Assembly (NCBI RefSeq): GCF_041320605.1
Contig: NZ_CP166679.1
Span: 3,210,001-3,274,000, forward strand
Direction: 5' to 3'
Source: Arenibacter antarcticus
GTDB taxonomy: Bacteria > Bacteroidota > Bacteroidia > Flavobacteriales > Flavobacteriaceae
Length of the DNA: 64,000 nt
Of the stretch, positions 15,238-42,651 are shown in pieces; position 1 is the first letter of the stretch, and each line of letters starts with the position of its first letter. A model generated the notes under the pieces. The model saw nothing but the letters and a program-made list of their open reading frames with translations, was not told the origin of the DNA and searched no databases. The translations under genes were made by a program, and so were the position numbers.

Positions 15238-15609
15238 TTATGCTATTTTTCGATTGCTGTCAATTGTTGAGAGGGCATTATTCAACACAGTGGTGTTTTC
15301 CTTGACCAAAGAGTAATAAAGTGTTTGGCCATCACGCCTCATTCGGATGACCCCTGCATCTTTCATCTTACGGATATGCTGGGAAACCGCAGGAGCGCTC
15401 ATTTCTAGTATATCCGCAATATCACAAGGGCAAAGCTCTTCTTCCATATTTAAAAGGAAAAGAATTTTCAAGCGCACCTCACTTCCCGCCAATGCAAATA
15501 TTCTGCTTATCTCCTGAAAACCGGAGGATGAGTTTTGTATGGTTTCTTTACATCTTGTGAGCTGCTTATGGTCAGCCTCTTTACGGGTACAGGATATTTC
15601 TAGTTTCAT
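15238..15609 (-). CDS. ArsR/SmtB family metal-responsive repressor
   Basis: The 123-residue protein has a winged HTH (APAVSQHIRKMKDAGVIRMR) and the metal-sensing ELCPCD motif on helix 3 (C60, C62), like ArsR and CadC-type sensors. It heads the minus-strand arsR-merTP-GDCCVxC unit and probably represses it until metal binds. A small leader reading frame ends exactly 10 bases upstream; the same leader precedes fabF at 41.4 kb. Confidence 0.92.
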   Translation of the reverse strand: MKLEISCTRKEADHKQLTRCKETIQNSSSGFQEISRIFALAGSEVRLKILFLLNMEEELCPCDIADILEMSAPAVSQHIRKMKDAGVIRMRRDGQTLYYSLVKENTTVLNNALSTIDSNRKIA

Positions 15610-15619
15610 ATGTAGCTAT

Positions 15620-15739
15620 TTATTGCTTTTTAACGGTCATACTTCGGCTGCACCTGCCTACGGCAGGTAAACTAGCCTGACGGCAGTCAGGTTCACATAT
15701 CTTCATTCGGAATTGCGAGCAGTTTTCGGTTTTACTCAT
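15620..15739 (-). CDS. Leader small ORF upstream of arsR (39 codons, palindrome-bearing)
   Basis: The frame begins MSKTENCSQFRMKICE, continues with 17 residues encoded by a palindromic insertion (CCTGAC...GTCAGG and ACCTGCC...GGCAGGT), and ends MTVKKQ. Outside the insertion it matches the leader at 41325-41399 at the DNA and peptide level, including the preceding ATGAAATGAG (15735-15744) and the 10-base gap to the next start codon. It may be a translated leader peptide or a non-coding cis element. Confidence 0.45.
   Translation of the reverse strand: MSKTENCSQFRMKICEPDCRQASLPAVGRCSRSMTVKKQ
15652..15691. repeat. Pair of short palindromes inserted in the arsR leader
   Basis: Two small hairpins, ACCTGCC/GGCAGGT with a 3-base loop (15652-15668) and CCTGAC/GTCAGG with a 4-base loop (15676-15691), lie in tandem. 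They are absent from the otherwise matching leader of fabF. Such CCTGCC-type palindromes look like dispersed REP-like elements. Confidence 0.6.
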
Positions 15740-15850
15740 TTCATAGTAAGGTTTTTGTCGGCCAATAAAATATCACCTTACGTAATTAAGCAAATACTTA
15801 AATATAAATATTTGTTAAGATAGATTTTGTTCAGTAATAAAGCCGGCTTT

Positions 15851-41225: not shown

Positions 41226-41409
41226 ACAGATACTTACTGAAGTTTTTGTATAATAGGGATAAGAGGGGTTAAAGTGAGTTGAAATTAGCATTAACGGTTC
41301 CAATTAAGAAATAGAACCTATGAAATGAGCATGACCGAAAACTGGTCGCAAACACGAATGAAGATATGTGAATTACATATGACCGTTAAAAAACAATAAA
41401 TATCTACAT
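41226..41409. promoter_or_regulatory. fabF leader region
   Basis: The region from 41320 to the fabF start closely matches the arsR leader on the other strand (15609-15744): the shared blocks are ATGAAATGAG, CGAATGAAGATATGTGAA, ATGACCGTTAAAAA and CAATAAATA.CTACATATG. Confidence 0.65.
41325..41399 (+). CDS. Leader small ORF upstream of fabF (24 codons)
   Basis: It encodes MSMTENWSQTRMKICE, then LH, then MTVKKQ and a stop 10 bases before the fabF ATG. The arsR leader has the same peptide with a 17-residue insertion in place of LH. Conservation of frame, spacing and both ends suggests a translated leader peptide or a conserved cis-acting RNA; which one is unknown. Confidence 0.45.
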   Translation: MSMTENWSQTRMKICELHMTVKKQ

Positions 41410-42651
41410 ATGAAAAGAGTAGTAATAACAGGTTTGGGAGCGTTGACTCCAATAGGAAATTCAGTAGATGAATTATGGAAAAGTGCTATTAGTGGCAAAA
41501 GCGGTGTGTCCAAAATCACCAAGTTCGACCCATCATTGTTCAAAACAACTTTTGCAGGTGAGTTAAAGGATTTTACCCCTGAAAAACACCTTGTTCGGAA
41601 CGAGATAAAACGAAGTGATCGCTTTACGCAATATGCCCTCTATTCTGCAACTGAAGCAATCGATGATAGCGGCCTAGATATAAAGACCCTTTCTCCCTTT
41701 GATATCGGTGTTATTTGGGGATCAGGTCAAGGAGGAATGCAGACCTTTGAAAATGAGGTGATGAACTATACTCTGGAGGGGAAGCAGCCACGTTTCAATC
41801 CATTTTTTATTCCAAAGATGCTTGTGAATATGGCTTCGGGAATGATCGCTATGAAATTTGGATTGATGGGAATCAACTATACGGCAGTATCCGCTTGTGC
41901 CTCTTCAAACTCAGCGATTATGGATGCTTTTAATTACATACGTTTAAACAAAGCAAAAGTAATGATTACTGGAGGGTCGGAAGCTCCCATTACCGAAGCT
42001 TCTATTGGAGGTTTTAATGCCATGAAAGCGTTATCGACCAGAAATAACGATCCACAACAGGCCTCTAGACCTTTTGACGTGGACAGGGACGGATTTGTAA
42101 TGGGAGAAGGAGCGGGCACTTTGGTCCTTGAAGAATATGAACATGCCAAAAAACGTGGCGCAAAAATCTATGCCGAAATAGTAGGTGCTGCAATGACCGA
42201 CGATGCCTACCACATCTCCACAACGCACCCTGAAGGTATTGGTGCAATAAAAGCGATGGAATTGGCGATGGAAGAAGCAAAATTGAATCCAGAAGAGGTC
42301 AACTATTTAAACGCCCATGCTACCTCTACTAATGTGGGGGATTTAAGCGAGATGAAAGCCGTGGAGAAAGCATTTAAAAATAACTTCAATAACCTTAAGA
42401 TTAGTGCAACAAAATCAATGACGGGACATTTAATGGGGGCTGCAGGGGCTATTGAAGCAATTCTGTCGATTAAGGCGATAGAAAACAATATAATCCCCCC
42501 AACCATCAACACCGTTAAAATTGATTCCGAAATTCCCAAATCAATGCCTATAGTTATTAAAGATGCAGTTGAGAGTAAAGTTAATGTTGCCATGAGCAAC
42601 ACCTTTGGTTTTGGCGGGCATAACGCAACAGTAATTTTTAAGGGTATCTAA
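41410..42651 (+). CDS. fabF: Beta-ketoacyl-ACP synthase II-like enzyme
   Basis: The 413-residue thiolase-fold enzyme condenses malonyl-ACP with acyl-ACP. The Cys-His-His triad is present: SACASSN (about C163), NAHATSTNVGD (about H301) and KSMTGHLMGAAG (about H340). The C-terminal GFGGHNATVIF is typical. There is no acpP or other fatty-acid gene nearby, so it is probably an accessory paralogue rather than the housekeeping copy. It has a conserved leader shared with arsR of the metal island. Confidence 0.9.
   Translation: MKRVVITGLGALTPIGNSVDELWKSAISGKSGVSKITKFDPSLFKTTFAGELKDFTPEKHLVRNEIKRSDRFTQYALYSATEAIDDSGLDIKTLSPFDIGVIWGSGQGGMQTFENEVMNYTLEGKQPRFNPFFIPKMLVNMASGMIAMKFGLMGINYTAVSACASSNSAIMDAFNYIRLNKAKVMITGGSEAPITEASIGGFNAMKALSTRNNDPQQASRPFDVDRDGFVMGEGAGTLVLEEYEHAKKRGAKIYAEIVGAAMTDDAYHISTTHPEGIGAIKAMELAMEEAKLNPEEVNYLNAHATSTNVGDLSEMKAVEKAFKNNFNNLKISATKSMTGHLMGAAGAIEAILSIKAIENNIIPPTINTVKIDSEIPKSMPIVIKDAVESKVNVAMSNTFGFGGHNATVIFKGI

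Follow-up and report, generated by a model that had tools for sequence, protein, structure and literature searches.

The leader that precedes arsR and fabF in the window (the whole stretch of 64,000 nucleotides of the Arenibacter antarcticus genome analysed here) is almost certainly a mobile element. The explanation that best accounts for the findings overall, and in which we are fairly confident, is a non-autonomous element of about 90 nt that is carried by many bacteria of the family. It inserts in one orientation directly 5' of ATGAAA (in Arenibacter mostly T/ATGAAA, the slash marking the junction) and leaves no target duplication beside this fixed short target, as in elements of the IS200/IS605 type. 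It looks like a small mobile element, undescribed so far, that lands at gene starts without breaking genes.

Both leader blocks, of 135 nt at arsR and 90 nt at fabF, lie where the original prediction had placed them, and they are near copies far beyond chance. The arsR copy (15610..15744, minus strand) is the long form and abuts the arsR ATG at 15609. It consists of a conserved 5' block that starts with the left end ATGAAATGAG (15692..15744, minus strand), a centre with the inserted palindromic modules CCTGAC..GTCAGG and CCTGCC..GGCAGG (15641..15691, minus strand), and a conserved 3' block (15610..15640, minus strand). The fabF copy (41320..41409, plus strand) is the basic form and abuts the ATG at 41410; its left end, ATGAAA (41320..41325, plus strand), is the same hexamer as the target. 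Its A-rich stretch AAAAAACAATAAATA (41388..41402, plus strand), strongly conserved between genera, probably serves as a translation initiation region. The downstream genes are indeed unrelated: an ArsR-type HTH_5 protein (PF01022; 15238..15609, minus strand) and a fabF-like beta-ketoacyl synthase (PF00109, PF02801; 41410..42651, plus strand). The predicted in-frame small ORFs were also recovered as MSKTENCSQFRMKICE...MTVKKQ and MSMTENWSQTRMKICELHMTVKKQ, each followed by a stop codon; they span 39 codons in the arsR copy (15620..15739, minus strand) and 24 codons in the fabF copy (41325..41399, plus strand), and belong to a peptide family that carries no selection signal. A spacing of 10 bases to the next gene had been attributed to the blocks. 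It holds for the stop codon of the small ORF, which ends 10 nt 5' of the fabF ATG, but not for the shared block, which runs into the ATGAAA of the gene. In agreement with the view that no described family matches the leader, an Rfam scan of the window placed tRNA alone above the gathering threshold and gave no match at the leader.

The leader is a dispersed repeat. Searching the whole genome (one contig, 4,694,007 bases) with the fabF block yielded at least 59 matching pieces, a lower bound with 40 of 73 candidates scored, and the best other copy had E = 1.8e-43. Forty further places were fetched and read (L059 and L060, false pattern matches, were left out), and the repeat occupies at least 40 sites in the genome, two of them in the window. 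At 35 of these 40 sites an ORF of at least 43 codons begins with its ATG immediately after the block; the five sites away from a start are L032, L035, L036, L047 and L052. The ten target proteins scanned all have Pfam families and share no common theme. The proposed spread of the leader to several genes is therefore confirmed, with many unrelated genes carrying copies. Of two findings that the original prediction had named as speaking against it, a larger duplicated segment holding the blocks is not what we see, whereas further copies do lack frame conservation. Tandem pairs or triplets of units occupy some sites, the closing ATGAAA of one unit being the opening ATGAAA of the next; in three of these arrays, the unit next to the gene is both the most complete and the most similar to the query. 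We also observed remnants of an older unit directly to the left of a younger one at L081/L169 and L030, with the younger unit nearer the gene. At L260, L312 (G155) and L288 (G231), two or three units of 89-91 nt are lined up in tandem 5' of one gene. Units of 44-55 nt with both ends kept and the P1 region (see below) absent stand at start codons at L053 and L057 of the Arenibacter genome and at L320 (G353); these are internal deletions or mobile mini-forms. Apparent units of 51-52 nt among the order-wide loci were an artefact of the left-end rule and not mini-units. An autonomous long copy was likewise considered and rejected: in G000, the Arenibacter genome, 5' and 3' blocks without a partner proved to be decayed copies or copies away from a start, and no gene was seen between the ends.

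Occupied and empty sites in related genomes bear on how the leader arrived. At engB, where the Arenibacter genome has two tandem units between the flank and the start codon, the site is empty in all 17 other genomes of the genus that were searched, the flank joining ATGAAAATAAAG or a close variant. Among other genomes of the genus, fabF is present in 12 and lacks a close match in five; of the 12, ten have an empty site, and G007 and G001 have a copy, that of G001 being seen in its 3' part. The left flank of fabF in G005 matches that of the Arenibacter genome as far as the ATG. The net insertion thus reads flank/ATGAAATGAG...CTACAT/ATGAAA-gene. The insertion at kdsB is older and common to the ten species in which it was found. 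Within this inherited copy, G017 and the Arenibacter genome have had palindromic modules added in place, which implies that the arsR copy and other long forms grew from basic units by later insertion. Short palindromes of different families in different genera were noted in the centre of the element (window positions 15641-15691; L076, L088, L115, L267, L280, L298 and L315). Over eight species the kdsB leader has a mean difference of 0.165 of sites, with 0.146 for the upstream neighbor and 0.476 for fourfold sites. Since it evolves more slowly than fourfold sites, the leader is constrained like the adjoining 5' region, which counts against a pure parasite. Judging from the kdsB sequences, single copies may have turned into working 5' leaders.

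The junctions define the target. Among 134 unique copies, from loci mostly of the genus, 114 lie at ORF starts (an ORF of at least 50 codons or open to the locus end), 6 are tandem and 14 are other. The right junction is ATGAAA in 107 of the 114, versus 58 of 317 background ATG-start ORFs of the same DNA. A T occupies position -1 of the left flank in 54 of 74 Arenibacter copies after removal of tandems and repeated kdsB copies (75% of 85 units with these included), compared with 33% of 58 background starts. In the eight copies whose gene does not begin with ATGAAA, the left end is ATGAAA in four and a one-base variant in three; the left end is therefore part of the element, not a copied target. 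We asked how far ATGAAA itself is biased toward starts in 300 kb of the same genome, a null used in place of the window alone (18 at starts and 16 intergenic, two of the latter being left ends of elements). In the 300 kb, 48 occurrences of the hexamer fall at starts, 60 are intergenic and 278 intragenic. If only intragenic insertions were lost, 44% of sites would be expected at starts, against the 35 of 40 observed (p = 2e-8; 6e-6 at the upper confidence bound); with T/ATGAAA as the null the expectation is 60% (p = 1.4e-4; 0.04 at the upper bound). ATGAAA is thus the target, and starts are favored by mechanism, survival or both. Two copies miss the start, L328 and L278 standing 7 and 19 nt ahead of long ORFs.

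The element extends well beyond Arenibacter. A 97-nt block search of 40 genomes, the Arenibacter genome included, matched 18, namely, 16 of the 18 genomes of the genus and two of other genera; a copy was also seen in G016, the seventeenth genome of the genus to show one. A sequence-only model of the 3' end that includes ATGAAA matched 169 of 397 family genomes at E <= 0.01, of which about four could be due to chance, in 122 of 237 genera; Flavobacterium, Lutibacter and Salegentibacter are among the named ones. Order-wide, 47 of 296 genomes matched at E <= 0.001, many of them from another family, f5. The share at starts in these wide searches is possibly inflated, as the 3' block that they use may survive better there: 81 of 104 copies, mostly of other genera and about ten of them from loci also in the 134-copy set, lie at ORFs, with 7 in tandem and 16 other. 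Some of these 16 are in tandem with another subfamily and some are upstream of a long ORF. All 28 order-wide loci fetched contain a copy at an ORF of at least 75 codons, although three of these places had already been seen and three represent the same gene in related genomes. The left part, which opens with ATGAAA or less often ATGAAC, is highly variable between genera, and the best-conserved part is the end of the element, AAAAAACAATAAATA plus about seven more bases, in an alignment of 26 chosen 3' ends and in one of 64 units. Viral contigs, searched with one pattern, and plasmids and phages, searched with blastn, gave no match to the element.

Two stems recur in the aligned units. P1 (alignment columns 5-11 with 55-61) closes the left half of the element and corresponds in the fabF copy to a left arm at 41324..41330 and a right arm at 41368..41374, both on the plus strand. 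P2 (columns 63-68 with 95-100) pairs an internal CATXTG with CAX' and the target ATG, columns 98-100 being the ATG of the gene. At fabF, its left strand is CATATG (41376..41381, plus strand), the CAT part of which pairs with the start codon, and its right strand joins the final three bases of the element to the fabF ATG (41407..41412, plus strand). Alignment A2 comprises 64 units of 88-95 nt (one of them, L074, from kdsB) and leaves out near-duplicates and module-bearing units. In it, both partners of a pair are changed in 103 cells versus 35.2 in shuffles, none of 500 being as high. Sliding the partners by one to three columns left at most 18 cells, a control flattered by P1 and P2 having been read from sequences that are also in A2. 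Over the 64 units, the X-X' pair (66/97) is G-C in 31, A-T in 13, C-G in 11 and T-A in 1, and pair 10/56 of P1 is G-C in 32 and C-G in 27. Pairs 8/58 and 9/57 are G.A and A.G in two subfamilies, Arenibacter among them, which we take to resemble tandem sheared G.A pairs. A check came from new rows, i.e., the 28 order-wide loci minus the three seen before and two of the remaining 25 that had no guide: 18 of 23 have a Watson-Crick X-X' pair (14.2 on average after shuffling, p 0.005), and P1, on the 17 rows with a recognizable left end, is paired in 65 of 85 cells (shuffled 49.6; 0 of 5,000 as high). RNAalifold predicted no consensus pair on A2, so the stems are weak on their own.

The fate of P2 over time speaks to what the fold is for. 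P2 is whole in 47 of 54 A2 units of other genera and in 2 of 10 of Arenibacter. Only one of nine kdsB copies inherited in place retains it, and the Fisher test of kdsB versus A2 partly compares genera. The better test is the gradient with age, which agrees with plain neutral decay: when Arenibacter units are ranked by likeness to the consensus, P2 is whole in 12 of 16 (at least 90%), 4 of 11 (86-90%) and 1 of 11 (below). Present in young copies and later not maintained, P2 favors a role in movement. We consider it probable that the fold serves movement; from its decay, P2 does not look as if it were kept for regulation in place.

These decay data weigh on the reading of the leader as a cis-acting regulatory RNA, in which P2 would hide the start codon until a signal opened it and the sequence would have spread since the regulation was useful. 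Such a reading draws on the covarying P2 that includes the start codon, on the correct orientation of most copies at starts, and on the slow kdsB leader relative to fourfold sites. It is nonetheless quite unlikely: P2 decays with age and is broken in eight of the nine kdsB copies, no consensus RNA fold emerges from RNAalifold, the ten target genes share no theme, presence and absence differ by species, two copies stand 7 and 19 nt short of a long ORF, and the constant left ATGAAA is given no reason. Regulation by a cis-acting RNA, one of the two functions originally suggested, is probably not the driver, even though the kdsB leader is constrained. The other suggestion was a translated leader peptide; in the reading considered here, reinitiation 10 nt 5' of the gene would couple the two translations. 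It found encouragement in the frame open in both window copies, in 27 of 48 units longer than 95 nt having a length divisible by three, and in peaks of leader ORFs about 10 nt upstream that passages of one report describe, Bacteroidetes included (PMC4833913). Across copies, however, the frame is open to its stop 10 nt 5' of the gene in 33 of 111 units, the 154-nt class (five copies) is out of frame, and frame-shifting indels separate kdsB copies. In 38 units of 90 nt, one of which is merely 54% like the consensus, changes are distributed 105/132/108 over the codon positions, synonymous changes number 51 versus 56.8 expected, and stops number 25 versus 28.8 expected. The check for synonymous-site bias thus revealed no constraint, codon positions and stops gave no signal, and we regard a translated peptide as very improbable. 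Similarly far-fetched, and slightly more so, would be a spread in which short homologies recombine or undergo gene conversion with no dedicated enzyme. The shared ATGAAA could seed such exchange and tandem units exist, but homology of six or seven bases is too short for RecA, the junctions are exact, and the fold is conserved between genera. Integron attC sites, whose motif is GTTRRRY, were dropped by eye as a candidate, and the copies are scattered.

For the mobile element, a single-strand mechanism of HUH type with a layout close to IS200/IS605 is conceivable by analogy, a little short of an even bet. Read on the opposite strand, the order is TTTCAT^ in the flank, a linker of about 25 nt, ATGnAA, hairpin P1 and TTTCAT^ at the end of the element, where ^ would mark the cut. 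This would amount to two like cutting sites TTTCAT, the antisense of ATGAAA, and one complementary guide at the hairpin foot. An enzyme acting on single-stranded DNA would probably cut after TTTCAT at both ends, and the element would then be joined 3' of TTTCAT in the target. In IS200/IS605, a guide just 5' of the hairpin foot interacts both with the target beside the element and with its terminal bases, according to parts of two reports (PMC6006769, PMC8266576). A scheme of this kind would explain the identity of left end and target, the absence of duplication, the single orientation and tandem insertion. It leaves unexplained the pairing across the presumed cut by P2, which differs from the published guide geometry. 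For the guide ATGnAA versus TTTCAT, the CAT of columns 63-65 pairs with the ATG in 61-62 of 64 units, a geometry unlike that of IS608; T occupies columns 60 and 61 in 42 and 39 of 64 units, respectively. The idea that the guide predicts the base at -1 was rejected: it fits Arenibacter, but subfamilies ending in CAC or CAG show by eye no preference for C or G. With the origin near 1.5 Mb and the terminus near 3.5 Mb, as inferred from skew in 20 sampled stretches, 21 of the 40 sites are codirectional with replication and 19 are opposed, the latter being the predicted orientation, and no strand preference is seen.

A search for an enzyme tied no Y1 HUH transposase in or beside the element to it among 60 loci examined. 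Within the genus, a copy lies within about 1.5 kb in 3 of the 30 Y1 loci fetched (of 48 matches) and on both sides in none; outside the genus, the element is present in none of the 30 fetched (of 72 matches). G000 has one broken Y1 gene and one RAYT-like gene with its own repeat. At L062, the RAYT-like gene (712-1200 and 1198-1797) stands next to clustered copies of that repeat, which measures about 100 nt (GCTCCGCAAAGTCTCACGACT...) and is not related to the leader. These data also bear on the proposal that the leader is a REP-like sequence spread by TnpA-REP (RAYT), for instance, by genes of the Bacteroidetes TnpA subclass 2.6, which sections of one report describe as flanked by atypical structures (PMC6006769). 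The hairpin with its guide-like foot, the many copies and the presence of one RAYT-like gene in the Arenibacter genome fit this proposal, as do Y1 matches in 13 of 14 high-copy versus 4 of 11 copy-free genomes (Fisher p 0.007; all hand-chosen, with one of the four copy-free matches below the cutoff). Yet the RAYT gene of the Arenibacter genome is flanked by another repeat, the element does not enclose any of the Y1 loci fetched, and neither G010 (12 matching element pieces) nor G353 (14 matches) has a Y1 match, which makes this source rather unlikely. Like REP and REPIN sequences, the element is a short hairpin repeat with many copies outside genes; unlike them, it lacks GT[AG]G at the hairpin foot (folds and alignment, by eye), does not lie beside the RAYT genes examined, and inserts exactly at ATGAAA with about 90 nt.

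Comparison with other known systems sharpens this picture. IS200/IS605 elements (IS608, ISDra2) share the absence of target duplication and the strict orientation, a fixed oligonucleotide that flanks one end with an identical one closing the other, and, as far as the pairing goes, a hairpin with a putative complementary guide at its foot; the layout of these elements is set out in sections of PMC6006769. The element described here differs from them in being about 90 nt and gene-free with one hairpin instead of two, in a P2 that spans the cut and a target that is the antisense of the start codon, and in having no linked Y1 gene and no replication-strand bias seen. With the MITEs of DDE transposons it shares small size, dispersal and lack of autonomy; in contrast to these, its ends, read by eye, show no terminal inverted repeats or target-site duplication, and a left end that differs from the target is not copied from it. 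Rickettsia palindromic elements are repeats that insert without killing the gene, inside reading frames. The gene survives here as well, with the element preceding reading frames instead. In the open-licence literature we came upon no account of a repeat that targets start codons in these bacteria, the nearest being the statement on atypical structures beside subclass 2.6 TnpA genes (PMC6006769); a description may exist elsewhere.

Mobile elements usually avoid or break genes. Here, the start codon appears to be a safe landing place, by which the 5' leaders of unrelated genes are exchanged, and core genes (engB, kdsB, GAPDH and fabF) are among the targets. Insertions may survive because translation of the gene behind the element can initiate from its A-rich end; if that end is able to start translation of any gene, an insertion 5' of the ATG would do little harm. 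Bacteroidetes lack Shine-Dalgarno sequences, as stated in passages of one report (PMC6847099). In a fuller and still more tentative scenario, the element would find starts through CAT:ATG pairing, an enzyme would insert it exactly before the ATG, and the A-rich end would take over initiation and leave genes unsilenced, in at least two families of one order. The element also sets a trap for annotation, being readable as a conserved regulatory leader or a small protein, and it opens a concrete search for an enzyme of these bacteria that reads TTTCAT. If true, this would exemplify, in nature, insertion guided to gene starts by base pairing, and would offer a route to the rewriting of leaders across a whole bacterial family.
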